Part shown: in pieces, positions 3,639 through 64,000 of the stretch
Layout of the letters: each line of letters starts with the position of its first letter
Numbering within the stretch: position 1 is the stretch's first letter
Assembly (NCBI GenBank): GCA_905233685.1
Contig: CAJOEZ010000006.1
Span: 1-64,000 of the forward strand
DNA length: 64,000 nucleotides
Direction: 5' to 3'
Source of the DNA: an uncultured Bacteroidales bacterium
GTDB lineage: Bacteria > Bacteroidota > Bacteroidia > Bacteroidales > F082
Made by a program: the position numbers and the translations under genes
Notes under the pieces: model-generated
Databases searched by the model: none
The model's input: the letters and a program-made list of their open reading frames with translations, nothing else
Told to the model about the DNA's origin: nothing

Positions 3639-6600
3639 TCATTCCGCCACTACAAATCGCGAATACCCAATCTTGCCGTCGGTGTATTCCACTTTCAAGA
3701 TGTAAGTGCCTATGATAAAGCCGTTTGTGTTGATTGTGGTGTGACTGTCGTTCACTTCCTGGCTTGCCATTTGCACGCCCAACAAGTTAAACACGGCAAC
3801 CCGTTTCATATCTTCACCTTCAACAACAAGGCTCTCTTTGGCGGGATTCGGATAGACCTTCAGGTTCGCGTTGAGGTTTTCATCCACACCGACACCGCTG
3901 AACTGAACATAAATGGAATGGTTGCTGTTCACGCTGCGGAATGTGTAGGACTCCACAGGGCCAATGTCCACGCCGTCCACAATGACTCTTCCGACACGGC
4001 AACCGCTGTTGGGTATCATGGCGAAAGTCTTGTCTGCGCCAGGCTCGACAAACACATCCCCTTCGGGCGAAATGGTTCCATTACCACTGGCTGAGGCAGT
4101 GATGGTAAAGAACTGCCCTTGCGAGAACACCGCCACAAAGCTCCGGTTGCTATTCACCGTGAAGGAATAAGTGGGATTTGTGGAAACTATAACGCCGTTC
4201 TCCGTCCAATTCACAAAGGAATAGGTGGGATTGGCCGTGGCGGTCAAAGTGCATGTGGCACCTTCTTGGTATGTCCCAGTGCCTGACACCGAGCCTGCGG
4301 CGGCAGGCTCAACGCTTGCCGCAACCGTATAATGATTGATAATCCGCTCAAAATGAGCTGTGTAGACGGCATTGCTGGTAACTGTAAAGCTGAACGAAGG
4401 CTCCGTTGAGACTTGGCTTCCGTTCAAAGTCCATTTGACGAACTCATAGCCGACAGCGGCAATGGCATTGAGGGTGCAGGTGGTGCCCATCTCGTAGGTG
4501 CCGCTGCCCGAAATGGCACCGCCTTCAACGGGAGCAGCTATGGCAGTGATGGTGAAATGATTGGCATCTTGGGTGAAATGCGCCACAATCTCGACGTTGT
4601 CGTTCACGACGAAGCTGTAGCTTGGATCTGTCGAGACCACGAAGCTGCCCCTGGTCCAGTTTTCGAACACATAGCCCTCGTTAGGCATGGCCGTTAAAAC
4701 GCAGGTAGAGCCTGCGGGATAGATTCCCGCTCCCGAAACCGCTCCTCCTTGAGCTGGTTCGGCAACTGCTGTGATGGTGTATTCTTGGGGGATTTCACTA
4801 AAGTGTGCCACATAGCTGGCGTTGCTCGTCACCGTGAAACTGTAATCTGGATTCGTTGAAACCTGTGTGCCGTTCTTTGTCCATTTCTCAAATGAATAGC
4901 CGCTGTTGGGCGTAGCGTGCAGCGTGCAGGTGCTTCCCGAAGCATAGGTGCCATCCCCACTGACTGAGCCACCGTTAGCTGGTTCTGCGCTTGCCGTGAT
5001 GGTGTAATAGATGGTGCTAAGATCAAAGACCGCCACCAAATTACGGTTGCCGGTTACCGTGAAAGAGTAGGTGGGATTTGTTGAAACAGGAACGCCGTTT
5101 TCTAACCAATTCACAAATGTGTAGCCACTGTTAGGCCAAGCTTGTAAGGTACAAGTGCTCCCCGAGGCATAAGTACCTGTGCCAGTGACTGTTCCGCTGT
5201 TGCTGGGATTGACCGTGGCAGTGATGGTGTAGTTGGTCGTGCTTTGCTGAAAGTGCGCCACGTATGAAGCATCGCTAGCAACAGTAAAGCTGTAATTCGG
5301 ATTGGTAGAAACTTGCGAACCATCCTTTGTCCATTTCTCAAACGAATAACCACTATTCGGATAAGCATTTAAATAGCAAGTGCTGCCTTGGGCATAGGTG
5401 CCTTCGCCGCTTACCGTACCGCCGTAATCAGGGTTGGCAATGACAGTAATGTAATAATTTACACCCGTAGACGAGTAATACACACGCAGGTAGAACTGAT
5501 TATTGTCGTGAATCCAGCTGGCAGGAGCCGACTCGCAATCTAGGTCTTCGTAATGGGCATAAAGCTTGTAGTAATACCAAGTACCGTCAACGTTGGCCGT
5601 GTTGTCAGTATAACTAGTAGCATTGGCACCAAGCAGCTTGATTCTGATATACTCTGTGTCGTCAGTTCTTCTGAAGAGATAGTAGCCAGAAAGTCCGTCG
5701 GAGGGTTCCGGCCTTTCCCAAAGGAGTTTAATCTTGTTGTTACCCGTGTACTCATAGTCAAAGTTGCGTGGGGCATAACACTCGCCCGAAGAGGCGCACG
5801 ACTCGTTGGAGTAGTGGCCATTTTCGCCACCGTCGCTGAGGAAGCTCACGTAGTAGCAGTGGCCGCCCATAGCGACATTTTCGTCGACGAAGGAAGTGGC
5901 ATTGGGAATAAGACGATACATTAAATTGTCGCGGTACACCACATAGCCGTAACCTGAATCGTTGACGCCGTCCCATGAGACATTGATGTTACGGTTGTTT
6001 TCCGAGTCGACCATAGCGAAGAGATTGGAAGGCACTCCAGCACCAGGTTGTCCACCGCAACTGTTGTTAGTGGTGAAGAAAACACCTTCTGGCATGTCAG
6101 CAGAAGAGCCTGCATAGGTATAGACCGTACTATTTTGCGAATTCTTGATGGTGAAGGCCATAGTGAAGGATTCACCATTGGTTTGCGCCGTCCAGCCGAA
6201 AGAAACGTGACCCAGCGGAACGTCAATTGGAAAGGATTGGATGCTGGAGTTGGTGGTCGTCATTTGGGCAACTTCGGTGCCGGCGGAATTGTAAACATGG
6301 ATGGCACCACCACGGAATCCTTGGTAGGAAGCTTGTGTGACATTGATGATCCAGCCACATGTGGGACCGAAATTGACTTTATTCAGGTAGGCAATCTGAC
6401 CGTGGTTTCCGCCTCCACAAATGGCATACACCGTATAGTCAAAGGCATCAAAGCGTGGCACGCTGTTGTCGGCGATGGTCATGTTGGCACCAGGGGTCAC
6501 ATTATTTTCCGTATAGATGATTTCGCCGTTGCGGCACACAACAATCTGATCAATGGTGGTTAGGTTGCTGTTGTTCAGGGCCTTGGAAGGATTGGTCCAC

Positions 6601-7789: not shown

Positions 7790-9814
7790 TTATTCCGTTT
7801 CACAAACCAACCGAACGCTTTGCCCATAATATCGGAAATCGTTCTGATAAGGGCTGAGTGAGGTGCCATTAAAGCTTAATAGGCAGGCGTATTGGTCATT
7901 GTAACAGGAAGACGACCAATAATAGCCACTTGCATCTGTACCGCTCACGGATGTCCCAGCTCGGCTGCCAGCAGCGGGCAAGAATACAGCCCCCGCCGTC
8001 TGCAAAGTGTTCCAAGCGGAAGCCGAAATCACGTTGCTGCTGAAGGATGCGGTGCCGTCATTGAAGTTGTGAAGCGTGTAGGTGGAGCTATTCCAATAGT
8101 CAGGCAGTAGGATCACGCCGTTTTTGCCCGCCACCTCGGCCTTGGCGAAGCGCATTCCTGTGGAAGTGGGTCGCGTGAGTAGCAGATAGGCCCATTCGTC
8201 CTTGGTCAGCGTGCGCCAAACGCGGGTTTGGTTGCCGCCGTTGCTGATGGCGTTCGCACCCCAGTCGGCCAAGCCTGTTTGGTCATACAAATTGTTAGAC
8301 TTGGAGCCATATGCATAGTAATCGCCATAAGATTGGCTTGTCGAATAGGGCTGGTAGCAGGTTGCGCCGTGGGCGAAATCGCTTGTGCCCCAGCCGAACA
8401 AGTCAATCCAGCCGCTATTGTATTGGCCAATGCTGTTGTTGGCGTTTCCAATGTAATCATACTGGTTCTCGGCAAAACGCCAAGTGCTGGTAGCAGCTTG
8501 ATACTGAAGATTGCCTTGCGAGAAATACACCTTTTGTGATGCACTTACAGAAAACTTCCCGTTGATGTGTCCGACAGGGGTGTTATTGCTCCCGCCTCCA
8601 CCATTTCCGCCTCCGTTTCCACCGCCATTTCCGTTACCGCTGGAACTAACCAGGGTCTCAACGAAACGAGTGGCGGCATTCTTCATCGCATCAAAGTCAG
8701 AACCTAAAGAAGTCGTGCAGTCTAATACCAACATAATCAAGGCACTGCTTCTGTTCTCTGTTATTTCACTCGAACTATCAGGAGTAAACTCCGAATCTTT
8801 TTGCCACACGGCACCTTGCTTTTTCCATAGTTGTAGATAATTGATTTCACTTTGCGAAATGGGGGTGTCATTGGACAGATTCAAGTTTTCAAACTCAAAC
8901 CAATGGAAAGTGCCAGTCTCGGTTTGGGAGACGGATGCCACAGAAGACGCGCCATCTTTGAATCCGTGATAGCTGATGTTTTCCAAGCGCCTTCCGTTAT
9001 TCGCTGTGCGCTTGTAGGTGGCTTGTATGTATTTGGTTGAGTTGTCTCCATTGGATGTGTTGTCGAACGTGAATCGAATCACCAATCCGTCATCAAGGCC
9101 TCCGGGCAATTTCAATTTCAGATTAACCGTAGTCGTTTGTGAATACAAGGTATTGGCGATAAACTCAAATTGTTGCAATGCCACAGACATGTTGTCTGCT
9201 TCAAACACGTTGTTTGGACTACTTGCGAGCATGTTGAGATTTGTCCGAAACTCTGCCAAATTGTTGAGCACATCGGTTCCTTTCAAACCAATTGTATAGG
9301 CTTGTACGAAGTGTCCGTATACTTTTTCGCTCATAATCATATTGTGCAAAGCGGCACGATAGTTTGATGTACTGCTATAACCTTCCGGGTTCATGATATC
9401 ATTGCTGGTGGACAAGTTGTCAAGGCCATCAGTAAAAGTCACCAAGGCCACCTGCGTCAAAGTGGGTGGTTCGAGATTGGCTTGAAGCTTTTTCAAGCCC
9501 GTGTAGTCCGCATAATACAAAGCTGTGCCATCAGCAGTATTCAAGCCGCCGATAAACGAGGTAAAGTTTTGTTTTGTGGAACTGTTCAACAGACTGATGT
9601 CCTTTTGGTACAGTTGCTCGTTGAACCCGATGATGCCGAGGTACATTCCTTCTACAGTGGGCGTGGAGCCACCACCGCCATTTCCGCCGCCGTTGTTTCC
9701 ACCTCCGCCCCCGTTATTCGGGTTGTTTGGTTCTTCGGGTTTCTTGCATCCAGCGGCACAAACGACCGCCACAATTAGCATTAGGGCTGCTAAGACTTTC
9801 GCAAATTTCTTCAT
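7790..9814 (-). CDS. Lipoprotein with vWA-like domain and FISUMP domain
   Basis: 674 residues. The signal peptide ends in a lipobox (VCAAGC, Cys23), so the protein should be lipid-anchored. A Gly/Asn-rich linker (about residues 35-50) precedes a von Willebrand factor A-like region (LTQVALVTFTDGLDNLS, later LIMLVLDCTTSLGSDF). A second Gly-rich linker follows. The C-terminal FISUMP-type domain has the conserved sequence landmarks VYFSQGNLQYQ, WRFAENQYDYIG, WIDLFGWGTS, WRTLTKDEWAYLL and ending SVRLVCE. The same domain recurs in the gene at 57343. The function is not known; surface display and ligand binding are inferences. The gene has an unusually long, potentially structured leader. Confidence 0.8.
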   Translation of the reverse strand: MKKFAKVLAALMLIVAVVCAAGCKKPEEPNNPNNGGGGGNNGGGNGGGGSTPTVEGMYLGIIGFNEQLYQKDISLLNSSTKQNFTSFIGGLNTADGTALYYADYTGLKKLQANLEPPTLTQVALVTFTDGLDNLSTSNDIMNPEGYSSTSNYRAALHNMIMSEKVYGHFVQAYTIGLKGTDVLNNLAEFRTNLNMLASSPNNVFEADNMSVALQQFEFIANTLYSQTTTVNLKLKLPGGLDDGLVIRFTFDNTSNGDNSTKYIQATYKRTANNGRRLENISYHGFKDGASSVASVSQTETGTFHWFEFENLNLSNDTPISQSEINYLQLWKKQGAVWQKDSEFTPDSSSEITENRSSALIMLVLDCTTSLGSDFDAMKNAATRFVETLVSSSGNGNGGGNGGGNGGGGSNNTPVGHINGKFSVSASQKVYFSQGNLQYQAATSTWRFAENQYDYIGNANNSIGQYNSGWIDLFGWGTSDFAHGATCYQPYSTSQSYGDYYAYGSKSNNLYDQTGLADWGANAISNGGNQTRVWRTLTKDEWAYLLLTRPTSTGMRFAKAEVAGKNGVILLPDYWNSSTYTLHNFNDGTASFSSNVISASAWNTLQTAGAVFLPAAGSRAGTSVSGTDASGYYWSSSCYNDQYACLLSFNGTSLSPYQNDFRYYGQSVRLVCETE

Positions 9815-10174
9815 ATCTGATAAATTTAAAGTTAGTTTCTTTTGTCTTTTCTTTTCCTTCGGCGGACTCCCTGTGCCGAATTTTCAATAATTCAATTCCG
9901 AAAAACACAAAAGAAAAGCGCGGGAGTCTGAAACGATTGCTTATCCCACCGCTTAGGCTCTCGCATTGCCCATCTATCGAGGATAAACAATGCCGATGCC
10001 CACGCTTCGAATATACTTGTCATCAGTATAAACGAAACCATGAACGTCAAACATTGTCTTACCGTGCGATAGATATGAATTTGCGAGATTCAAGCGGTCG
10101 CAGATAAAACGTCAGTTCAACGTCTTTCCATTATGTCTGCCACCCAAACCATTATGGATGACGAGGCAAAAATA
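9815..10174 (-). promoter_or_regulatory. Long leader with possible pseudoknot upstream of the vWA/FISUMP lipoprotein
   Basis: About 480 bp here lack a convincing gene. A minus-strand -7 box (TATTTTTG, 10167-10174) would start a transcript near 10160, giving a leader of roughly 345 nt. Near its 3' end GACUCCC (9928-9922) can pair with GGGAGUC (9871-9865) while CUUUUCUUUU (9918-9909) can pair with AAAAGAAAAG (9855-9846). The two stems cross, the geometry of an H-type pseudoknot. A 26-codon ORF (MFDVHGFVYT...) is also open in the leader. The remaining 10175-10299 shows nothing definite. Confidence 0.4.
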
Positions 10175-15712: not shown

Positions 15713-16004
15713 TTTTGGAACGAATTTTTTATCAATAACTCTGTTCTTTCGGTTTTATTGTTTGCTTTGCGCAATTTTTTTTCACCCCCGAAAAAGTCTG
15801 CAATTTTACGCCTTTTTTTTGAATTGGAGACTATTTTTTTTGGAAAAAAACTTTTTTTTCGGACAAATTGGGCTGCAACAATAAAAAAGCTGTATTTTCG
15901 TTCTTTGAAATACACGAGACTTCGAGACCTCGGGACGATGGGTTGTGACCACCGACTTTGACCCTTTAAATGATGAACAGTTACTGATTAATAATGAATA
16001 GCTT
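15713..16004. promoter_or_regulatory. AT-rich divergent promoter region between gldJ and the PorU genes
   Basis: 292 bp without a gene. On the plus strand a TTG at about 15866 followed after 22 nt by TATTTTCG (about 15891) is a fair -33/-7 pair for the sortase operon. On the minus strand TAAAATTG (around 15803) is a weaker match for gldJ. Long T and A runs (15820-15860) dominate the centre, and a stretch near 15910-15940 resembles the dispersed GACTTCGGGAC type repeat. Confidence 0.4.
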
Positions 16005-25446: not shown

Positions 25447-25524
25447 ATGGCCAGAGAAAGCGCATTCTTCGCTTTGTTCCTTGATTGTGAAACTGGACAC
25501 TTCGCTAAAGATAACAAGGAATAA
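25447..25524 (+). CDS. Possible 25-residue leader peptide
   Basis: A short ORF (MARESAFFALFLD...) begins about 20 nt after the predicted transcription start and ends inside the 5' arm of the hairpin described next. It has four phenylalanines in the first half. No strong ribosome-binding site is visible. It could be a translated upstream ORF coupled to leader folding, or chance. Confidence 0.3.
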   Translation: MARESAFFALFLDCETGHFAKDNKE

Positions 25525-25647
25525 GGTTTGAATGATGCTCCTTTTGGATTATTGTCCAAGTGGAGCTGTTCACATTCCTTATTTTAGTTATCTTGGGAAG
25601 TCCAGCCCACACAGTCAAAAATAGGGCATTGGTGAAAGGCTCCACTT
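25510..25647 (+). promoter_or_regulatory. Structured leader with competing stems
   Basis: Nested pairing: GATAAC (25510-25515) with GTTATC (25587-25592), AATAAGG (25520-25526) with CCTTATT (25577-25583), and inside them an 11-bp stem with one mismatch, 25537-25547 with 25556-25566. The 3' arm of that inner stem, AAGTGGAGC (25558-25566), is also perfectly complementary to GCTCCACTT (25639-25647), so two folds exclude each other. A small GCTC/GAGC hairpin follows near 25672. No known riboswitch motif was recognised. Confidence 0.45.
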
Positions 25648-25711
25648 TCTTTGTTGTAACCAAAAGTAAAGCTCTTCGAGCCTTGGGGCAAAAACAAAAA
25701 ACTACATCATC

Positions 25712-45982: not shown

Positions 45983-46668
45983 TTGACCTTCTTTTTGTGG
46001 TTAGGGTAAAACTTTTCAAGGATGAAATCAGTCGTTTCTTGGCTGATTTTCAATGCGGACTGAATTCGATATTCTACAGGGTCATATTGATAGCAACCAA
46101 CACATCCTAGCTCTTCGGTATAGTTTTCATCACCTTCGTAAAAAGAGTATGGATTGCCTTCTATGTTCCTTGCATCCCATCGCAAATCGGATATTTTGCA
46201 ATTCTTGCATATTTGGCGTTTGATGTCGTTGGCTGCTTTGCAAAGAGGCTGAAAGTCTTCCAGTTGCTGCGTTGAGGGGTCTGAAACTCGCATGTCGTTC
46301 TTGCGCCCATCTTTGTGGTCAACCTCTATCGTAGTATTTTCTGACGTTCCGTTCACGCCCAACATGACACATTTACGTTTTCTTATAGCATCGCAAATAT
46401 CCTTTCGTATAGCTTGGCTAAAATGCTGTTGTTCATTAAAACCGACAAGACGAATTGCGTCTATTCGGTTTCCAGGTGTTATACTTCTATCAACCTCAAC
46501 ATTGTATTTCCTTTGTAGAGGAGAGGATGCTCTTCCCCAACTCCATCCATTTCCAAGTTCCAATGATTTGTACTTGCCAGTAAATTCGGTAACATAAACC
46601 CATCGACTTACACCATTAGCGTTAGGTTGAGCCAATTCCAGAAATAAATCAATCATTCCCATAATCAT
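45979..46668 (-). CDS. HNH restriction endonuclease
   Basis: 229 residues. A central HNH site is visible as IEVDHKDGRKND (Asp117-His118) followed by FQPLCKAANDIKRQICKNC, with zinc-type cysteines. This is the layout of type II HNH endonucleases with a DNA-reading N-terminal part. It sits between two DNA methyltransferase genes with 4-bp overlaps on both sides, the expected place for the restriction subunit. The ribosome-binding site GGAG precedes the ATG at 46668. Confidence 0.82.
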   Translation of the reverse strand: MIMGMIDLFLELAQPNANGVSRWVYVTEFTGKYKSLELGNGWSWGRASSPLQRKYNVEVDRSITPGNRIDAIRLVGFNEQQHFSQAIRKDICDAIRKRKCVMLGVNGTSENTTIEVDHKDGRKNDMRVSDPSTQQLEDFQPLCKAANDIKRQICKNCKISDLRWDARNIEGNPYSFYEGDENYTEELGCVGCYQYDPVEYRIQSALKISQETTDFILEKFYPNHKKKVK

Positions 46669-47450
46669 TTCTCCTTTCTGAAAACAAAAACATACTCGTG
46701 TTTGAATAGGAAATTACCATTGCGCAGAGCGCGATAACGCCATAATGCTTCGCTCCCGATTTTTGCTCTGTTGCCAACCATATCCTTGACAACAATTCCC
46801 TTTAGTTTGCAATCGAACTCTTTTTTGATAGCATCCATCAAGTGAAACCCTAATGGGACGACTTCACCATTTCGATAAATATCGCCTATGACTAAGACAA
46901 AATGTTTCTTTGCTTTTAGTAAATCAACTCCACTATGCATTGATGCGATGAATTTCTTCGTAAATTCATCAATATCAGTAATGTTCGATAAGTCTTCCGA
47001 TTTGTCAGTGAATTTGATAATATCCAAATAAGGAGGATGCGCAATAACAAGGTCAACTTTTTTCTTTTCATACCTTTTCAGATCTTTCTTAATTAAGTCT
47101 TGTGCGCCCTGTGTGTCGCAAATGTCGTGATTATGAATTGTGAAATGAATACTGTCGCAATCTATCATGCTATTGCCAACAAAATCTATGATTTCTGTAT
47201 TGATGTCGAAACCAATGTAATCACGATTCAGATTTTCACATTCGTAAAGTGTCGTGCCACTTCCCATAAATAAATCAAGGACAACGTCGTTTTCGTCGGT
47301 GAAGCGACGAATCATATTGTTCGGAATTTGCGGAGCAAAATTGCCATGATAAACATTGGTATGTTTGCCGCCTTTTGCCCTTGGCCCAATAATCCAAAGG
47401 CTATCAACATTGAGATCGTTATCCTTCCAGTTTTCCTTATCGAAGTTCAT
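46665..47450 (-). CDS. DNA adenine/N4-cytosine methyltransferase
   Basis: 261 residues. SAM-binding motif VVLDLFMGSGTTLYE (about 56-70) precedes the catalytic HPPY (138-141), so the target is an exocyclic amino group. The ATG at 47450 is chosen because GGAGG lies 7 nt upstream, while the longer frame begins with TTG. The start codon and its ribosome-binding site lie in a hairpin (ATGCCC 47449-47454 with GGGCAT 47470-47475). First gene of the RM operon. With the m5C enzyme it gives the system two methyltransferases, as expected for an asymmetric recognition site. Confidence 0.88.
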   Translation of the reverse strand: MNFDKENWKDNDLNVDSLWIIGPRAKGGKHTNVYHGNFAPQIPNNMIRRFTDENDVVLDLFMGSGTTLYECENLNRDYIGFDINTEIIDFVGNSMIDCDSIHFTIHNHDICDTQGAQDLIKKDLKRYEKKKVDLVIAHPPYLDIIKFTDKSEDLSNITDIDEFTKKFIASMHSGVDLLKAKKHFVLVIGDIYRNGEVVPLGFHLMDAIKKEFDCKLKGIVVKDMVGNRAKIGSEALWRYRALRNGNFLFKHEYVFVFRKEK

Positions 47451-47835
47451 GCCCACCTCCAATCTGCGAGGGCATCAGATAAGGCATAATTACAATTTGT
47501 GTAAGTAATTCGTTATTTACCATACATTGCCATGCTTTGTATAGCGTCGGGAACTTGTTCGATGACAACAGGCTGGCAAATACTGGAAAACGATGAAGCG
47601 TGAATTTCACTTACCGCATTCCGAGGTATTTGCCGAACCTGTCACACTTAATAAGTTCCGTCCACGCTTTCGCACGGACGTTTGAACTTATTCTATTGTG
47701 TGACATTTCTTCTAATGGGCAAATTTTCGGAATGTCTCGAATAAATCGCAAACGCTATGGTTTATAATATGTTAGTTGGTCTTTGTTGTTAAATCATCAA
47801 TTATTTCTGTTTGGTGGTTTATTGGCGCAAAAGTA
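47451..47835 (-). promoter_or_regulatory. Structured leader of the RM operon
   Basis: About 370 nt between a -7 box (TACTTTTG, 47828-47835, minus strand) and the first methyltransferase. Pairings: ATAGCGT (47541-47547) with ACGCTAT (47752-47758), CATTCCGA (47617-47624) with TCGGAATG (47727-47734), ATTTGCC (47628-47634) with GGCAAAT (47718-47724), and a long hairpin 47641-47704. An alternative 9-bp stem (47575-47583 with 47626-47634, extended by ACAGG/CCTGT) excludes part of these. A last hairpin covers the start codon. No known RNA family was recognised. Confidence 0.55.
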
Positions 47836-54617: not shown

Positions 54618-56247
54618 ATGGTATTACTACAAACCAACGTCACAATGGTGATCTTCATCTGCATCCTTGCAGTGGTCATCCCGTTCCTGCTTTACTACCT
54701 CTCGAAGGCCAAGAAGGAACATCCTAAAGGCTTGATTGCAGCCGCTTTAAGTAACATGGGCGAGCGTTTCGGCTACTACATCATGAACGCCATTCATCTA
54801 CTCGGTGTTCTACTTTGGCATTTACGTGCTGAGTCTGGTGGGCGGTATCATCGCCGACCGCACACAAAACTACAACCGTACCATCCAATGGGGCTTGATT
54901 ATCATGGCCATTGGTTATGTCGGCATGGCTATCCCGCTGTTCAGCCAGGATGCTAACGGCATCATCGTTGACGGCAACGGAAAATGGTGGGGCATCCTCA
55001 TCTTCACGTGCTTCGCCTTGCTTTGCATCGCATTCGGTAACGGTCTGTTCAAGGGCAACCTGCAGGCTTTGGTCGGCCAGATGTACGATAACTTCGAGGC
55101 TGAGGCTGCCAAGAAAGGTCCTGAGGCCTTAGCTGTGGCCAAGGACAAGCGCGACAGCGGCTTCCAGATTTTCTACGTGTTCATCAACATCGGTGGTGTG
55201 ATTGCTCCTTTCGTGGCTCCTATGCTGCGTGAGTGGTGGCTGAAGGCACACAACTTCGTTTACAATGCCGATATGTCAGCACTCTGCCACCAGTATCTGG
55301 CCAATGGTGAGGTGACGCAAAAGTTCACTGAAACGATGGCGAACTCCGTCCTTCCCACCGCTAACTATGGCACCAACCTGACGCAGTTCTGCTCCGATTA
55401 TATTTTGACCTTCAACCAGGGCGTTCACTTCTCGTTCTTTGTCTCGGTGGCCGCCATGATGATTTCGTTGATTATCTTCTTCACGCAAAAGAGCAGATTC
55501 CCGCAACCCGCCAAGAAAATGGCTGCTGAAATTGCTGGTTATACCGCTGAGGAAAAGGCTGCCATGGCGAAGGAAATCAAGCAGCGCATGGCCGCTTTGT
55601 TCGCCGTGTTGGGCATCGCCGTGTTCTTCTGGCTGTCGTTCCACCAAAACGGCCAGTCGCTGTCGGTGTTCGCCCGCGACTTTGTGGATTCATCGAGCAT
55701 CGCTCCCGAAATCTGGCAGGCTTTGAACCCCTTGTTCGTCATTATCCTCACCCCGTTGGTCATGGGCATTTTTGCCATATTGGCTAACAAGGGCAAGGCC
55801 GTCTCGACGCCTCGCAAGATTGCCTACGGTATGGGTCTCGCTGGCTGCGCCTACCTCTTCCTGATGATTTTCTCCATCGTGAAGCACTATCCTTCAGGCG
55901 ACGAGTTCCGCGCCATGGATGCTGCCACGATGGCTGCCGCTGGTTTGGCCAAAGCCGCCCCGTGGGTGATGATTGTCACCTATTTCTTCCTGACTGTGGC
56001 TGAGTTGTTCATCTCTCCGCTGGGTCTGTCCTTCGTCTCGAAGGTGGCTCCGCGCCACATGGTGGGTCTCTGCCAAGGCTTGTGGTTAGGTGCCACGGCC
56101 ATCGGTAACCTCTTCATCTTCGTGGGTCCCATCATGCTCAATGCCTGGCCTATCTGGAAATGCTGGGGCGTGTTCCTCGCCATCTGCCTCGTCTCCATGA
56201 CGGTCATGTTCGGCATGGTGAAGTGGTTGGAGAGAGTGACTAAATAA
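54618..56247 (+). pseudogene. POT-family peptide transporter, broken by an internal deletion
   Basis: Two frames together make a nearly complete proton-coupled oligopeptide transporter. The first (from 54618) reads to SNMGERFGYYIMNAI. The second resumes at IYSVFYFGIYVLSLVGGIIADRTQ (54796 on) and continues to the stop at 56247. The intact paralogue at 60664 has 18 residues between the equivalent points (FVLFLQAKFGYNEAQAGH), whereas here only one base separates them, so 53 bp appear to be missing and the frame shifts by one. Helix 1-2 is lost, so a functional product is unlikely unless this is an assembly error. All downstream motifs are intact, which suggests the lesion is recent. Confidence 0.8.
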
Positions 56248-56303: not shown

Positions 56304-56345
56304 GAACATTTTTCATAAAAAACGATTCCTATCTGAAATTTTTTG

Positions 56346-56641
56346 TACATTTGCCATCGATTGTTCGGGGAGACATCCGAATGATTGAAGGCAATTTGTG
56401 CTTGTATCTTGATATGTAAATCTGGAAAATTTAGTAGGTAAGATACAGACAGCGAGTTAGCCAGCCCAGATTTGTTATCAATCAACTATTGATAATAAAC
56501 ACAGGCTAGGTTACCGCGTCTATTTTTATCTACGAGGTATTCCAGAGCCTACATATCGGAAATAGGTGCGAACAAGTTTCCTAGCCTTCTTATGTACGAA
56601 TCTGAAAACCTGCCGAATCGGGGAAGCAATAGGCAAAAGAA
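56346..56641 (+). ncRNA. Structured RNA element, copy A
   Basis: Starts with a -7 box TACATTTG (56346-56353), so transcription should begin near 56359. The following 280 nt match copy B (62497-62780) in long conserved blocks (e.g. GGCAATTTGTGCTTGTATC, AGAGCCT, CCTGCCGAATCGGGGAA) separated by variable segments that keep pairing. Stems: GTATCTT (56404-56410) with AAGATAC (56440-56446), TTATCAAT (56475-56482) with ATTGATAA (56488-56495), GCG (56452-56454) with CGC (56515-56517), and AGGCTAGG (56503-56510) with CCTAGCCT (56580-56587). It lies between the POT terminator and the gene at 56676, with no terminator of its own, so it may be a leader or an independent RNA. Confidence 0.75.
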
Positions 56642-56675
56642 GTTGCACCCGATTAACGTACTTAGGGCAAAACAG

Positions 56676-57332
56676 ATGGATATTACCAAAGATTACAAAC
56701 CAATCAAACCGGCAAAAGTTTTGTTAATTGGCCATGATCCAACATTGCGAAATACGGAAACGCAAGCAGAGTACGCTTTTTTCGCAGACTATTATTTCAA
56801 AGAAGAACCAAAGCAAAAAAGCGAAAAACGCAAGTTCATGTTAGCCAAAAGAACCTTTGACCAAATCCTTGATGTTACGGTTGGAAAATTTGATGCTGAT
56901 GAGATTTATATCACGAATTTATGCAACAAAACACTTCCACATGCCAAAGGAGTTGTAAAAATTCCCCAAAATGAGGCTGCTGAAGGTGTGATAAGAATAA
57001 AAGAAATCCTAAAAAGCAATCCGACAATCTTGTATGTTTTTCCTATGTCTCTTCAGGTGAATTACTGGCTCCAAGAACTTGGACTATATAACTCGCATGA
57101 TAGTTTCCTTGATGATACAAGACCTAAGGAAAGCGAGAAAGACACGCAAGGTTTCAAGCCCAAAAAAGGAAGAACTTTTTTACAAATATGCGGAAAACAA
57201 TTTAAAATCGATGGTTTTAATAAACAAATACTCATACCCATTTTACATACAAAACAGTATCCTTTGACTGGAAGAATGACCGCTTATGAGGATTCGTATA
57301 GACACATTCGTGATTATTTCAAACAACAATAA
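56676..57332 (+). CDS. Uracil-DNA glycosylase-superfamily-like protein
   Basis: 218 residues, clearly lower GC than the surrounding core genes. KVLLIGHDPTLRN (residues 14-26), the central YITNLCNKTLPH and the late ILIPILHTKQYPLTGRM recall the three motif positions of the UDG superfamily (water-activating loop, uracil pocket Asn, His loop), but the match is loose. The ATG at 56676 is used; a longer frame from 56592 reads through the conserved RNA element and is unlikely to be translated. 10 bp before the next gene. Probably a horizontally acquired pair. Confidence 0.45.
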   Translation: MDITKDYKPIKPAKVLLIGHDPTLRNTETQAEYAFFADYYFKEEPKQKSEKRKFMLAKRTFDQILDVTVGKFDADEIYITNLCNKTLPHAKGVVKIPQNEAAEGVIRIKEILKSNPTILYVFPMSLQVNYWLQELGLYNSHDSFLDDTRPKESEKDTQGFKPKKGRTFLQICGKQFKIDGFNKQILIPILHTKQYPLTGRMTAYEDSYRHIRDYFKQQ

Positions 57333-57342
57333 TAATAAAGCC

Positions 57343-59151
57343 ATGAAAAAACAATTATTCTTACTTGTTTTGGTTTGCACAATTATGTGTAAACCCATCC
57401 TATCACAGGAATTTCTCAGATTGTCTTTTACGGGGCAAATTGGCGATGGTTACTATCAAAAAATGGAGAGCATTGGCATAAAAAATGTCACTCGTGATTG
57501 GATTGAAGTCATTCATTATCCCGACACTACCATAACAATCGATTTAACTACCAGTATTCAAAACATTGAAAGCGGGAACACTATTAGTGTGGCTCCAAAT
57601 CCGTTTTACGGTGAATCCAATATTTTCTTTGAAATAAAAGAAACGTCCCATGTTGTCATTACAGCACATAATTTAAGTGGAGATTTATGTACAAAACACG
57701 AAACAGATTTGTTTGCTGGAAACTACACTTTCAAAATGTGTCTAAGCAAAACCCAGATATATATCATATCAATTCAAATTGGCAATGTTAGACATTCTCT
57801 AAAAGTGGTTAATTTGGAAAACCGTTCTACTGATTACATTGTGTTAACAGGATGGGACAATGGGGCAAAACAACCATCGGGAAAGGGATACATTGATCGC
57901 CCATTTGAATTTGGCGATATTATGGAATACGTAGGATCAGCTACAATCAACGGATCCGCCATTAGTAGCGAACATATAATTCAGAGTCAATTATTTAACG
58001 AAGACATCATCCTTCATTTTTCCGCTTTTTTGCCCACAGTTCAAACAGATAATGTTAGCAATATTGCGCAAACAACAGCGACTTGTGGTGGCGAAGTAAC
58101 CTCTGATGGATATGCATTTGTATCGAGTAGAGGTGTATGTTGGAACACGGAACCGCATCCCACTTTGGCTAACTCTCATACTACTGACCAAAACGGCATA
58201 GGACATTTCAATAGTTCTCTGACTGAACTATCTCCAAACACAACTTATTATGTTAGAGCATATGCAACAAATAGTGTAGGAACTGTATATGGAAATGAAA
58301 TCAGTTTTACGACTGAAATCGAAAGCACATGGCCCAATGGAACTTTACCAGGACTATTTTCTGTTGATCCAATTCAAAAAGTTCAATTTTCACAAGGAGT
58401 ATTACAATACAGAGCAACCACCAACACTTGGCGTTTTGCAGAAACTCAATACGAATTTATTGGGCAAGAAAACCTCAATATTTCTTCAAACTATGATGGT
58501 TACATTGATTTGTTTGGTTGGGGAACAAGTGGATACTCACATGGTGCAGTTTGTTATCAACCATGGTCAATTACCGATGTCCCTAATTTATACTATGCGT
58601 ATGGATATATGAATTATAACTTATACGATTTAACAGGCAAGGCCGATTGGGGTTACAATGCCATCATTAATGGCGGAAATCAGGAGAATTATTGGAGAAC
58701 ACTATCTTCCTCTGAATGGCAATATCTTCTTTTTGATAGAGAAACTCCATCGGGAATACGTTTCGCAAAAGTTTCTATTGGTGAAATTTCACAAGCCGGG
58801 CTTATTCTCCTTCCTGATGACTGGGATGAATCCATTTTTTACTTAATATATCCAAACGAAATAGATCCTTTTTCTTTAAACGCCCTTACACTTGAACAAT
58901 TAAATTATTTAGAGGCCAATGGCGCCGTGTTTCTTTTATACGCCGGCTTACGTCATGGAGATCTTGTCGGTCAGTTTTATTATTATGATAATTATTGTTG
59001 TTATTGGACTTCTGATCATAGTACTTCTAATAGCGAAAACGCTCTTATTCTCAGTAATAGCAGGTCTAATTTACAACTCGGAGGGCATCGTCGATGTGAG
59101 GGGCTCCCTGTTCGTTTAGCTCGCACTACCGCATTAAACAAACGAAAGTAA
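57343..59151 (+). CDS. Secreted FISUMP protein with internal sorting-like domain
   Basis: 602 residues, AT-rich codons. Signal peptide (PILSQ), an N-terminal beta domain, then at about residues 60-140 a segment shaped like a T9SS type A sorting domain (SVAPNPFYGESNIFFEI) but placed near the N-terminus. An Ig/FN3-like domain follows (TTATCGGEVTSDG...NTTYYVRAYATNSVGTVYGNEI), and the C-terminal FISUMP domain (VQFSQGVLQYRATTNTWRFAETQYEFIG; YIDLFGWGTSGYSHGA; WRTLSSSEWQYLLF). The same FISUMP domain ends the lipoprotein at 7790. Surface role inferred. The start at 57343 follows a run of Asn codons that would otherwise extend the frame. Confidence 0.75.
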   Translation: MKKQLFLLVLVCTIMCKPILSQEFLRLSFTGQIGDGYYQKMESIGIKNVTRDWIEVIHYPDTTITIDLTTSIQNIESGNTISVAPNPFYGESNIFFEIKETSHVVITAHNLSGDLCTKHETDLFAGNYTFKMCLSKTQIYIISIQIGNVRHSLKVVNLENRSTDYIVLTGWDNGAKQPSGKGYIDRPFEFGDIMEYVGSATINGSAISSEHIIQSQLFNEDIILHFSAFLPTVQTDNVSNIAQTTATCGGEVTSDGYAFVSSRGVCWNTEPHPTLANSHTTDQNGIGHFNSSLTELSPNTTYYVRAYATNSVGTVYGNEISFTTEIESTWPNGTLPGLFSVDPIQKVQFSQGVLQYRATTNTWRFAETQYEFIGQENLNISSNYDGYIDLFGWGTSGYSHGAVCYQPWSITDVPNLYYAYGYMNYNLYDLTGKADWGYNAIINGGNQENYWRTLSSSEWQYLLFDRETPSGIRFAKVSIGEISQAGLILLPDDWDESIFYLIYPNEIDPFSLNALTLEQLNYLEANGAVFLLYAGLRHGDLVGQFYYYDNYCCYWTSDHSTSNSENALILSNSRSNLQLGGHRRCEGLPVRLARTTALNKRK

Positions 59152-59188: not shown

Positions 59189-59214
59189 GCCGGCAGCAAC
59201 GTCGGCTTTTTTCA
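59189..59214 (+). terminator. Terminator of the FISUMP gene
   Basis: GCCGGC pairs with GTCGGC (one G-T pair) around AGCAAC, followed by six T. Confidence 0.7.
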
Positions 59215-60663: not shown

Positions 60664-62346
60664 ATGTTCAAAGGACATCCCAAAGGGCTTTATGCCCTTG
60701 CATTGGCCAACACGGGAGAACGCTTCGGCTACTACACCATGCTGGCTATCTTCGTGCTCTTCCTACAAGCCAAGTTCGGCTACAACGAGGCGCAGGCGGG
60801 CCACATCTACGGCATCTTCCTCGGATGCGTCTATTTCATGCCCCTTATCGGTGGTATGCTCGCCGACCGTTTCGGTTACGGCAAGATGGTGAAGTCGGGC
60901 ATTGTGGTCATGTTCCTCGGCTACCTGCTGCTGGCGGTGCCGATGGCTACCACCACGGCCAAAGTCACCATGTTCTCAGCCTTGGCACTCATTGCTATTG
61001 GTACGGGTCTATTCAAAGGTAACCTGCAAGTGATGGTGGGCAACCTCTACGACGAGGCCAAATACAGCGCTTTCCGCGACAACGGCTTCAGCTTGTTCTA
61101 CATGGCCATCAACATCGGCTCGATGTTCGCGCCCATCACGGCTACCAAGGTCACGGATTTGTTCCTCGACAAGGCGGGCTACAGTTATGTGCCGCAGATT
61201 CCTTCCTTGGCGCACCAATACCTTGACGGCACCATCACGCCAGAAGCACTTTCTACCTTTGAGGCATTGGCTGTGCAGCAGGGTGGTAATGTAAACGACT
61301 TGGCAGGTTTCGCCAACAGTTACATTGACGCTTTGTCGGGTGCCTACAACTACGGTTTTGGCGTGGCCTGTATCTCGCTGATTCTCTCTATGGCGATTTA
61401 CCTTTGCTGCCGCAACTGGTTCAAGCACGCCGACGTGAACACCAAGCAGGCCAAGGCGATGGAAAGCACGACGGTGAATGTGGTGGAACTCTCGAAGGAG
61501 CAGACCCGCGAGCGCATCACCGCTTTGGTGATGGTCTTCGCCGTGGTCATCTTCTTCTGGATGTCGTTCCAGCAGGCCGGCCTCTGCCTGACTTACTTCG
61601 CCCGCGACTACACACAAAGCAGCGTGACGGGCTTCACCCGCATCGGCTTCAACATCTGGTCGCTGACTTTGATTGCCATTTCGGTTTATACATTGTTCGG
61701 CATCTTCCAGTCTGAGACCAAGCGCAACAAGACGATTTGCGCTATTGTGACGGTGGCGTTGTGGGCGGGAGCCATAGCATTGTATCTTGGTATGCCCGAC
61801 CCCATCAACATCCTGCCACAGCAGTTCCAACAATTCAACCCATTTTTTGTGGTTGCCCTTACACCCGTCTCGATGGCGGTCTTCGGAGCCTTGGCGAAGA
61901 AAGGCAAGGAGCCTTCCTCGCCACGCAAGATTGGCTTGGGTATGATTGTGGCCGCACTTGGTTTCCTCATCTTGGTGATTTGTTCATTCCCCTTGGCCAG
62001 TCCTGCCGAACTGAAAACTCATGGTGGCGTGAGCAGTACTTTGGTTTCCCCCAATTGGCTGATTAGCACCTATCTCGTCTTGACCTTCGCCGAACTTTTG
62101 TTAAGTCCTATCGGCATCTCTTTCGTCACCAAAGTGGCACCGCCCAAGTACAAGGGCATGATGATGGGCATGTGGTTCTGCGTGACCGCCATCGGTAACT
62201 ACCTCACTAGTGTCATCGCTCGCATTTGGGGCACAGGAATGCCGCTCTGGATGGTCTGGGGCGTGCTCGTCGTGCTCTGCCTGCTCTCCGCCGTGTTCAT
62301 CTTCTCTATCATGAAGCGGTTGGAAAGAGCTACACAGGGATGCTAG
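60664..62346 (+). CDS. POT-family proton-coupled peptide transporter
   Basis: 560 residues, intact. Inner-membrane symporter importing di- and tripeptides or related compounds. GERFGYYTMLAIFVLFLQAKFGYNE is the POT signature in helices 1-2, and GTGLFKGNLQVMVGNLYDE and NIGSMFAPITATKVTDLF follow. Fourteen membrane segments with a periplasmic domain around residues 190-240. It is a paralogue of the broken gene at 54618, and both are followed by a copy of the same structured RNA element. Confidence 0.92.
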   Translation: MFKGHPKGLYALALANTGERFGYYTMLAIFVLFLQAKFGYNEAQAGHIYGIFLGCVYFMPLIGGMLADRFGYGKMVKSGIVVMFLGYLLLAVPMATTTAKVTMFSALALIAIGTGLFKGNLQVMVGNLYDEAKYSAFRDNGFSLFYMAINIGSMFAPITATKVTDLFLDKAGYSYVPQIPSLAHQYLDGTITPEALSTFEALAVQQGGNVNDLAGFANSYIDALSGAYNYGFGVACISLILSMAIYLCCRNWFKHADVNTKQAKAMESTTVNVVELSKEQTRERITALVMVFAVVIFFWMSFQQAGLCLTYFARDYTQSSVTGFTRIGFNIWSLTLIAISVYTLFGIFQSETKRNKTICAIVTVALWAGAIALYLGMPDPINILPQQFQQFNPFFVVALTPVSMAVFGALAKKGKEPSSPRKIGLGMIVAALGFLILVICSFPLASPAELKTHGGVSSTLVSPNWLISTYLVLTFAELLLSPIGISFVTKVAPPKYKGMMMGMWFCVTAIGNYLTSVIARIWGTGMPLWMVWGVLVVLCLLSAVFIFSIMKRLERATQGC

Positions 62347-62472: not shown

Positions 62473-62780
62473 TTGTTCATCCTTTGAAAATTTTTGTACA
62501 TTTGCCGCTGATTGTTCGGGGAAAAATCCGAACGGTTGAAGGCAATTTGTGCTTGTATCTCGAAGTACGAAATCTGGATAATTTGGTAATGAGATAAATG
62601 CACGAGTTAGCCAGCCTCTATTGTATTCAACTCTATTTGATACGAAACAGGCTAGGTTACCGTGTGCTGTTTTATTACCAAGGTTATTCCAGAGCCTGTA
62701 CTTCAAGAATAGACACAAATAAGTTTCCTAGCCTTCTTATACATAAACCTGCCGAATCGGGGAAACTATAGGCAAAGGAG
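62473..62780 (+). ncRNA. Structured RNA element, copy B
   Basis: Promoter: TTG (62473-62475), 21-nt spacer, TACATTTG (62497-62504); the RNA should start near 62510. It shares the conserved blocks of copy A. Where the sequence differs, pairing is kept: TATCTC (62556-62561) with GAGATA (62591-62596) against GTATCTT/AAGATAC in A, ACG/CGT (62602-62604, 62661-62663) against GCG/CGC, and GTAT/ATAC (62623-62626, 62640-62643) against a different 8-bp stem. AGGCTAGG (62649-62656) with CCTAGCCT (62727-62734) is invariant. It ends about 50 nt before the lipoprotein gene at 62829. Confidence 0.75.
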
Positions 62781-62828
62781 TGTCCGAAAAGCCTTGAAGT
62801 GAGTAGGAAAGATTCAAATTCATTGTTT

Positions 62829-64000
62829 ATGAAACACTGTCATTTTTATTTGTTCTTTGCCCTAATCCTCTGCGTTTCAATTGCTTCTTGTTCGCAGAAC
62901 ATCACTAATCAGATGGAGAAAGCGGCTCCGTATTTCGAGAATCTGAAAAAGGTTTCCGATGCAGACAACGGCAAATTGTGGGGCAAAACGCTTTACGGCC
63001 CGACGATGTATGTCGATGTGCAAACGAGGAATCTTGTTGCCAATCAGCAAAACAAGGAAAACTCTCTTGTGCAAAAAGGAAACCTATATTTTGGGCAACT
63101 TCCTGAAGACATCATTATCGCCAACACATTGATTACTTATTGTGGCGAGAATTGGACCTGTGTGATATGGGACGGCAACCGCGATTTGCTGACCGAAACG
63201 CATATTCTGATTCACGAGAGTTGGCACCGCATCCAAGATGAAATCGGTTTGCCTGGCTGTGGGTCTTCAAACCAACATCTTGACGAAACGGAAGGCGAAC
63301 TGTTGCTGAAACTTGAATTGAGCATTTTGAAGGAGCTGCTGCAAAACGATTCCAAAGACCTAACGGAAGGCTTGCGCGATGTCATGACGGTGCGCAAATA
63401 TCGTCAATGTATGTACCCTAATAACAACGAAAACCAATTCGAATGTCACGAAGGCATGGCAGAGTATACGGCTTTCAAATTGTTGCCCTTGGACAATGAT
63501 AATGAGGCTGTTAGGAAAGGATTGGCTGCGGCTGCCATTATGAAAGAAATGGACAATAGCGGCTTCGGCAATTCGTTCGCTTATCTTACAGGTCCTGCTT
63601 ACGGACTCCTTTTGGATGAGATAGTTCTTGATTGGAGAAACAGCGTCCGTTCAGGCAAGACTATTCCTGATGTAATTTCTACGGTGGTTGCCATACCAGA
63701 TATGGTTGATAATGTTGAAATAGATAGAATATCAGCGCGTTATGATGTAACAGATTATCTCAACAAAGAAAGAATCCGCCTTGAAGCCCGCGACGAGGAA
63801 GATGCCGAATTGAGGGCTCGTTTCTCCGAATCAACATGGTTGGTGATTCCCAACGACAGTGTCAATTTCGGTTTCAATCCTGGTGAGCGGCTTGTTGCTT
63901 ACGATACCATTGGCGTGATTTACAATACAATGCTATTAAAGGGAGATTTCGGCACCATCGAGGTTGGAAACGGCATCATTCGCGCCAACAATTGGTCATA
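62829..64000 (+). CDS. Lipoprotein with HExxH metallopeptidase motif (3' end missing)
   Basis: 390 codons are visible and the frame is still open at the window edge. Lipobox SIASC (Cys21). IHESWH at residues 128-133 contains HExxH (His129, Glu130, His133), and HEGMAEY (207-213) offers Glu212 as a third zinc ligand, the pattern of gluzincin-type metallopeptidases. The later part (STWLVIPNDSVNFGFNPGERL and on) looks like a beta domain. It is likely a periplasmic or surface zinc protease of a family I do not recognise. It directly follows copy B of the structured RNA element, which may be its leader. Confidence 0.7.
   Translation, partial: MKHCHFYLFFALILCVSIASCSQNITNQMEKAAPYFENLKKVSDADNGKLWGKTLYGPTMYVDVQTRNLVANQQNKENSLVQKGNLYFGQLPEDIIIANTLITYCGENWTCVIWDGNRDLLTETHILIHESWHRIQDEIGLPGCGSSNQHLDETEGELLLKLELSILKELLQNDSKDLTEGLRDVMTVRKYRQCMYPNNNENQFECHEGMAEYTAFKLLPLDNDNEAVRKGLAAAAIMKEMDNSGFGNSFAYLTGPAYGLLLDEIVLDWRNSVRSGKTIPDVISTVVAIPDMVDNVEIDRISARYDVTDYLNKERIRLEARDEEDAELRARFSESTWLVIPNDSVNFGFNPGERLVAYDTIGVIYNTMLLKGDFGTIEVGNGIIRANNWS

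Follow-up and report, generated by a model that had tools for sequence, protein, structure and literature searches.

In the trp and his attenuators, a promoter-proximal leader adopts mutually exclusive pairings (1:2 and 3:4 versus 2:3), and the 3:4 stem abuts a U-rich tract. The HK022 put RNA and the EAR element of Bacillus, for their part, are RNAs bound to RNA polymerase, as a result of which distant terminators are ignored. The putative leader RNA described here, found as copies A and B in a 64,000-nt stretch of DNA from an uncultured Bacteroidales bacterium (the window, meaning the whole stretch analyzed), resembles the attenuators in its exclusive pairings, one of them abutting a U-rich tract, and in its closeness to a promoter, but differs from them in its length of ~200-270 nt, in having one long rod as the alternative fold, in its conserved internal-loop core, and in the mutually unrelated genes that stand behind it. 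Like put and EAR, it stands where transcription units of diverse gene content begin, viral contigs included, and a similar action on RNA polymerase is possible by analogy; it is, however, larger than the put RNA and the EAR element, and we know of no match in sequence or structure between it and either of them.

The first-pass annotation of the window had reported two copies of a structured RNA, and both were located when the window coordinates were re-read, with the TACATTTG box at the equal spacing that had been described, 4 nt 5' of hairpin P1 in A and in B (Table 1). A BLASTN search of the same genome with positions 56340-56650 as the query returned copy B at 77% identity and a third close copy at 74% identity outside the window (G000:C9:254646-254931). 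Pfam gave no match for either gene behind copy A or for the gene behind copy B. The conserved 3' element that follows the rod is missing or diverged in loci L012 and L033 of a 25-copy alignment. Genes for POT-family transporters (54618-56247 and 60664-62346) precede copies A and B, respectively, the one before A being split over two overlapping frames in the assembly. A stretch of the form GTTGCGCCCGACACG...TTAGGG lies between the 3' element and the start codon in ~10 of the 25 subfamily copies (e.g., 56640-56670), and a similar one is found behind different RNAs in L162 and L163.

Table 1. Coordinates of copies A and B, of two further members matched by family model R2, and of the associated genes and signals in the window.
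Feature	Position	Strand	Remarks
Copy A, promoter box TACATTTG	56346..56353	+	TAnnTTTG type
Copy A, 5' hairpin P1	56358..56387	+	From fold and helix 1 covariation
Copy A, rod (main fold)	56388..56588	+	AAGGC block to outer partner GCCTT; helices 2-6
Copy A, hypervariable stem P3, 5' strand	56411..56418	+	
Copy A, hypervariable stem P3, 3' strand	56550..56557	+	
Copy A, near-invariant core, 5' strand	56419..56432	+	AATCTGGAAAATTT
Copy A, near-invariant core, 3' strand	56540..56549	+	TTCCAGAGCC
Copy A, A5	56456..56467	+	5' arm of apical helix
Copy A, A3 (AGGCTAGG...)	56503..56515	+	3' arm of apical helix; partner A5 or S
Copy A, S	56576..56587	+	Distal segment GTTTCCTAGCCT, competitor of A5 for A3; in helix 2 its last bases are paired with the AAGGC block of the rod foot
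Copy A, U-rich tract	56588..56594	+	After S
Copy A, alternative terminator-like hairpin	56503..56594	+	A3...S plus U-rich tract
Copy A, conserved 3' element	56612..56634	+	GCCGAATCGGGGAAGCAATAGGC
First gene behind copy A	56676..57332	+	218 aa
Second gene behind copy A	57286..59151	+	621 aa
Terminator closing the copy A unit	59189..59212	+	GCCGGCAGCAACGTCGGCTTTTTT
Copy B, promoter box TACATTTG	62497..62504	+	
Copy B, 5' hairpin P1	62509..62538	+	
Copy B, rod	62539..62735	+	AAGGC to outer partner GCCTT
Copy B, A5	62606..62617	+	
Copy B, alternative terminator-like hairpin	62649..62741	+	A3 62649-62661; S 62723-62734; U-rich tract 62735-62741
Copy B, conserved 3' element	62751..62773	+	
DUF805b-like 5' UTR motif behind copy B	62775..62809	+	27.3 bits; gathering score 35.6
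Gene behind copy B	62829..64000	+	427 aa; continues beyond the window
Third member	9887..10127	-	R2, 44.4 bits, E 1.7e-6
Promoter box of third member	10174-10167		
Gene behind third member	7790-9814	-	674 aa
Fourth, weaker member	47567..47765	-	R2, 28.6 bits, E 0.0013
ORF behind fourth member	46665-47462	-	

Used as a DNA query against 100 relatives, copy A matched 24 genomes at an E value of 0.01, and the long matches from its own genome and from the relatives made up the 25-copy alignment (the short matches L004-L006, L026-L029, and L032 were excluded), in which all copies were alignable across nearly their full length. Covariance model R1 extended this subfamily to 43 full-length copies (192-281 bits) from one Bacteroidales genus, where 34 of 99 genomes carry them; the RNA is ~271 nt long and composed of the 5' hairpin and a rod of ~200 nt. 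A scan of contigs from named genomes returned 39 stretches, nearly all titled as Bacteroidia or Bacteroidales bins and coming, where a source was named, from rumen, other gut, or horse. Three of them belong to one bin called Candidatus Limimorpha equi, one repeats an already known locus, and two, L068 (Cytophagia) and L076 (Syntrophobacteraceae), were discarded as chance matches, judged by sequence.

Folding energies were -97.2 kcal/mol for copy A (z -7.0) and -97.6 kcal/mol for copy B (z -8.3), each compared with 200 dinucleotide shuffles. When 22 of the 25 aligned copies were folded singly, one common shape was recognized by eye, a 5' hairpin followed by a single long rod; the three left out were L009 (the same RNA as L008), L020 (an insertion), and L033 (a different 3' end). 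In L020 and L087 the loop of the 5' hairpin holds a small additional hairpin as an insertion. The paired substitutions pointed out between A and B recur throughout the subfamily: across 42 distinct copies, in an alignment fitted to the covariance model and therefore favoring structure (the single-sequence folds are independent of the alignment), 337 two-sided cells were counted compared with 109 in shuffles, none of 500 shuffles being as high. Of the 92 pairs counted, 45 show changes on both sides; pairing holds in 91.6% of cells, and the covariation score is 0.310, compared with at most 0.071 for slid versions; sliding the partner by 1-3 columns brings pairing down to 34-44%. The covariation exceeds every shuffle and every slide; the selection for RNA structure claimed from two copies is upheld.

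The individual helices behave differently within the subfamily. Helix 1 (P1) is paired in 98.6% of cells and shows two-sided changes in 9 of its 12 pairs; the 5' TTCGG lies in this helix, in agreement with the local pairing proposed for it, and the 5' TTCGG and the 3' CCGAA show no joint change by eye in the 25-copy alignment. The core helix (columns 92-96) is invariant. P3 (columns 80-86 with 242-248) is rewritten in many copies, with two-sided differences in up to 26 of the 42, and yet remains complementary apart from one non-standard cell.

The motif TAnnTTTG, which we take to be the promoter box as it is of the Bacteroidetes promoter type, closely precedes the RNA in all 39 subfamily loci counted, as compared with 8% of shuffles of the same stretch, and in none of the 39 does it occur between S and the start codon (the count covers 39 of the 40 subfamily loci, with L079, which ends without sequence behind the RNA, omitted). 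For the short-type relatives (n = 43), the motif lies upstream in 38 and between the RNA and the gene in 1. Because a TAnnTTTG box stands upstream and none separates the RNA from the gene, the subfamily RNA looks like an mRNA leader by its position, with the promoter identified by its motif alone; as in an attenuator, the leader would lie between the promoter and the gene that it controls. The start codon follows S at a median distance of 71 nt in the subfamily. The downstream genes had been called unrelated, and at the subfamily loci they are indeed of many kinds, all on the same strand, and with no common theme or common ligand among them pointing to a signal.

A similar arrangement was found in 26 class-wide loci, the untruncated ones among 29 readable loci from model R2: 25 have the first counted ORF downstream on the strand of the RNA, and in 8 of the 26 this ORF is more than 200 nt away, with a range of 200-660 nt for some copies. 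These longer distances, the RNA's own promoter box and terminator-like end, and the occurrence of several copies in some genomes could all be accommodated by a stand-alone small RNA that acts in trans and ends at the U-rich tract, with the gene behind it read through incidentally, an explanation that we consider unlikely given the same-strand gene at almost every class-wide locus and the lack of a TAnnTTTG box of its own for that gene in each of the 39 subfamily loci.

That two folds compete, with AGGCTAGG pairing either inside the rod or with the distal CCTAGCCT, had also been proposed from the two copies, and was corroborated by computed folds together with covariation. S resembles a second copy of A5, and in the fold in which it replaces A5 as the partner of A3 the remaining 3' half folds inside, with no pseudoknot. 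The A3:S closing stem has at least 7 pairs ahead of the U-rich tract in 36 of 36 subfamily members and 39 of 41 relatives (75 of 77), and in the wider family the 8 nt that follow S contain an average of 5.8 U, compared with 2.5 expected. The resulting terminator-like hairpin was computed at -30.0 kcal/mol in copy A (z -3.55, 1 of 200 shuffles as good) and at -27.7 kcal/mol in copy B (z -3.96, 0 of 200). As AGGCTAGG and CCTAGCCT are nearly invariant in the A/B subfamily, A3:S covariation comes from the wider family only, where the A3 and S segments differ and yet are complementary (e.g., GGCGUAGGC with GUCUGCGCC, GCGUGAA with UUCACGC, and GGCGCGGGG with CCCCCGCGC).

A3:S pairing surpassed that with shuffled S (p < 0.05) in 42 of 47 family rows and in every one of 39 subfamily loci. 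Of the 47 rows, 14 had also gone into building the model used to align them, R2, which contains no A3:S pairs though its sequence consensus covers S; in this test the two window rows were cut at the wrong columns. The native A3:S energy was -15.9 kcal/mol compared with -12.4 kcal/mol when S was swapped between rows (Wilcoxon p 3e-9), a value at which swapped S regions still pair fairly well. Among class loci with the CTGG/CCAG core pattern, A3:S beats 95% of shuffles in 14 of 15. The pattern is present in only 15 of the 29 class loci because CTGG/CCAG itself covaries, some loci also being truncated, and the class counts for promoter (12 of 29) and ORF (13 of 29) are low, having been made with this pattern. 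The predicted structures comprise two mutually exclusive pairings, one of them a stem followed by a U tract, as expected of an attenuator. Beside the core of the short-type relatives, CUUAUUCUC and GAGAAUAAG are complementary to each other and to later segments (for example, at A5 alignment columns 20-30 and 70-80), and through them the 5' half of these relatives may be self-folding too.

Our preferred reading, to which we assign about even odds (a probability of roughly 0.5), is that A and B are bistable promoter-proximal leader RNAs that decide between termination and readthrough into the gene. In the rod fold, A3 (AGGCTAGG) would pair with A5 and the 5' half with the 3' half, so that S (CCTAGCCT) would be unpaired from A3, its last bases being held in the A/B subfamily by the AAGGC block; in the other fold, the 3' half would pair with itself and A3 with S, forming a stem of ~8-12 bp that abuts the U-rich tract. 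The rod would act as the antiterminator and the A3:S fold would terminate, and a signal would set the balance through the conserved core (AAUCUGG / CCAGAGCC and its internal loops) or through the 5' hairpin, a switch logic like that of the 1:2/3:4 versus 2:3 attenuator. Starting from the sequences, computed structures, promoter boxes, and positions, we infer that the element is transcribed, that termination takes place and in which direction the switch works, and that a signal acts on it. The rod of copy A was computed at -75.8 kcal/mol compared with -21.7 plus -29.9 kcal/mol for its halves, and that of copy B at -73.9 compared with -27.5 plus -27.6 kcal/mol, which makes the rod more stable by ~24 and ~19 kcal/mol, respectively. 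Since the rod is far more stable at equilibrium, termination would need kinetic folding or a factor, and TCTTATG, the tract after S in the subfamily, makes a weak terminator U tract.

The position of the start codon relative to S in the subfamily and the conserved internal loops in the rod core would also suit a ligand- or protein-sensing leader acting on translation or mRNA stability instead of termination. Such a leader, which we regard as quite improbable, leaves unexplained why, throughout the family, S duplicates A5 and a U-rich tract comes after it.

By sequence comparison, A and B form one subfamily of a Bacteroidia-wide RNA family that is larger than is visible from the window alone. 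R1 also gave weak, mostly shorter matches within the genus, and 43 of the 56 examined carry a UCUGG...CCAGARCC core by pattern and a stable rod, a common core on which their dismissal as chance hairpins was rejected. These 43 lie in front of genes, including some for small helix-turn-helix-like proteins, one of which was tested and gave a sub-threshold HTH_7 match. The other 13 do not match the core pattern, and some are different rods (e.g., L138 and L145); L138, L145, L153, and L157, all weak matches to the subfamily model, have a similar 5' hairpin and a different rod core. Outside the genus, two exact-pattern matches with an unchanged layout were found among 395 class genomes.

Model R2, built from 35 relatives, matched (E ≤1e-4) 51 of 295 Bacteroidia genomes belonging to 34 of 156 genera, with several copies in some genomes, and in a phylum sample of 99 genomes it matched 11 of 24 Bacteroidia (own genome included) and 1 of 75 from other classes. 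Across 47 aligned family members 88.5% of cells pair, with 517 two-sided cells compared with 151 in shuffles and a covariation score of 0.593 compared with 0.195 in shuffles and at most 0.111 in slid versions; in some members the core helix itself is replaced by other complementary sequence. The search for covarying homologues that the first-pass annotation had suggested has produced many. In the window, R2 scores copy A at E 1.5e-7 and copy B at E 4.2e-5, and it adds the two minus-strand members of Table 1 (9887-10127 and 47567-47765), each having a promoter box and a gene behind it. Two still weaker matches lie at 15754-15842 (E 0.037) and 25453-25678 (E 0.35).

The family was also found by two pattern scans in eight viral-contig stretches (L257-L264, from IMG/VR), two of which, L257 and L261, look like the same phage. 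The subfamily pattern gave no match in viral contigs, and a plasmid search with one relative gave none either. In L258, L260, and L262, the RNA has minus-strand genes on one side and a run of small plus-strand genes on the other, and for these small genes no PHROG function was obtained; L260 has two tandem copies (4437-4619 and 4725-4914) and a phage-type integrase further upstream. The proteins near the RNA in L259 and L263, which we take by their appearance to be of a transposase family, fall in PHROGs of no known function.

This viral arrangement bears on the idea that the RNA is a processive antiterminator, in which the rod would bind RNA polymerase and later terminators would be ignored, the S hairpin being the first one passed. 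The RNA ahead of the run of small genes in the three contigs and the tandem copies in L260 would fit such a role, as would the very varied cargo with no metabolic theme and a conserved core suggestive of a fixed partner. The early-operon interpretation, however, comes from three viral contigs with small genes to which PHROGs assign no function, and the rod RNA is larger than put and structurally unlike it. We hold a processive antiterminator to be unlikely.

The claim that the RNA is absent from the known families was sustained. No Rfam 15 family reached its gathering score anywhere in the window, and none matched the rod RNA; at relaxed E-values copies A and B gave weak, chance-like Rfam matches, plus DUF805b behind B. 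No Rfam family was found at the rod in 20 subfamily loci (E up to 0.05), 15 relatives (E 0.1), 19 class loci (E 0.5), or 5 of the 8 viral loci (gathering score). Neither 6S RNA, tmRNA, RNase P, nor SRP RNA was matched by Rfam at the RNA, and ARAGORN detected neither tmRNA nor tRNA in the window.

DUF805b RNA (RF02914), a short Bacteroidia 5' UTR motif with a 35-nt model, shares the wording GGAAGC...TAGGC with the conserved 3' element. Its gathering score of 35.6 was not reached, the best scores being 27.3 bits behind copy B and 28.8 bits behind L156, and the motif lies outside the rod; none of 24 motif-centered loci shows a rod by eye. DUF805b was rejected as the parent family because folding upstream of it was near the control (mean z -0.9 compared with -0.5 over 30 loci, of which 6, L198, L199, L201, L204, L207, and L220, were off-center, weakening the result and not reversing it), and it appears to be a 5' UTR motif separate from the rod RNA. 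The DUF805b RNA is present in 86 of 149 Bacteroidia genomes, with up to 11 matches each.

In titles and abstracts of the open-access literature no description of a rod-leader family was found. PMC8040213 lists the palindromic candidates HMP2_4205, HMP2_1065, and HMP2_1032, of 80-132 bp and mostly or wholly from Bacteroidetes, as predicted intrinsic terminators; these could be pieces of such rods. Structured 5' elements of flavobacteria without an Rfam match are reported in PMC9723704, and members of the family may already stand unnamed in lists like that one.

Comparison of subfamily loci revealed a mosaic organization. Different genes stand behind one upstream site (A/L043 and L040/L095), and related genes stand behind leaders without upstream similarity (A/L048, L035/L049, and L043/L083). 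Rods that are 95-99% identical have flanks of 42-67% identity in L048/L075, L074/L095, and L046/L053, whereas L045/L046 have flanks of 86% and 93% with rods of 72%, and L034/L063 have a 3' flank of 96%, a 5' flank of 60%, and rods of 69% (the rod and flank comparison excludes the L043 rows, in which the landmark was not found). In L034/L093 and L036/L037, rod and flanks are equally conserved. Rods appear to have been exchanged between loci by recombination, and gene conversion among many leader copies is the simplest cause of the mosaics.

A near-identical terminator lies downstream of 15 of the 40 subfamily loci, behind different genes, A and B included. It occurs three times in the window's genome (59189-59212, G000:C6:64156-64179, and G000:C13:47265-47288), twice behind A and B and once behind an operon without the RNA. 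With one mismatch it was found 0-3 times per genome, and in this genus alone among 60 genomes of 25 genera, at 14 places in 10 of the 60 genomes (own included), 5 of them downstream of a subfamily RNA and 9 not; the terminator as a mark of the unit's end thus held in part. Short palindromic repeats of the GGTACACnnACTTGTGGACCACAAA type, perhaps marks of another mobile element, occur upstream in L048, L053, and L049 and downstream in L054, L083, and L087.

Shared terminators, one upstream locus with different cargo, related cargo without upstream similarity, near-identical rods with unrelated flanks, and diverged rods within conserved flanks might suggest a mobile DNA element or recombination site, the hairpin working as DNA and the RNA structure being a by-product. 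We judge this very unlikely: neither the promoter box nor the orientation varies, the distance to the gene is largely preserved as well, an informal look noticed no repeat, target duplication, or recombinase as a shared feature of the loci, the loci with equally conserved rod and flanks speak against it, and the mosaics are accounted for by homologous gene conversion among the repeated leaders.

Under the bistable-leader reading, the RNA would represent a family of genetic switches distributed across Bacteroidia and, it seems, not yet catalogued. Two of its properties are uncommon among regulatory RNAs and merit an explanation of their own: the hypervariable stem P3 almost always keeps its complementarity, and rods seem to be swapped from one locus to another. 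A more far-reaching proposal, that the rod leader, with several copies per genome ahead of unrelated genes, acts on RNA polymerase itself (by readthrough or processive antitermination) as a general RNA-based control of elongation in Bacteroidia, adopted by phages and with its rods traded among loci, is doubtful; if true, the trading of rods by recombination would bring new cargo under the same control. If the family is one of switches, a gene-control RNA absent from Rfam would be present in about one in six of the sampled Bacteroidia genomes (51 of 295).
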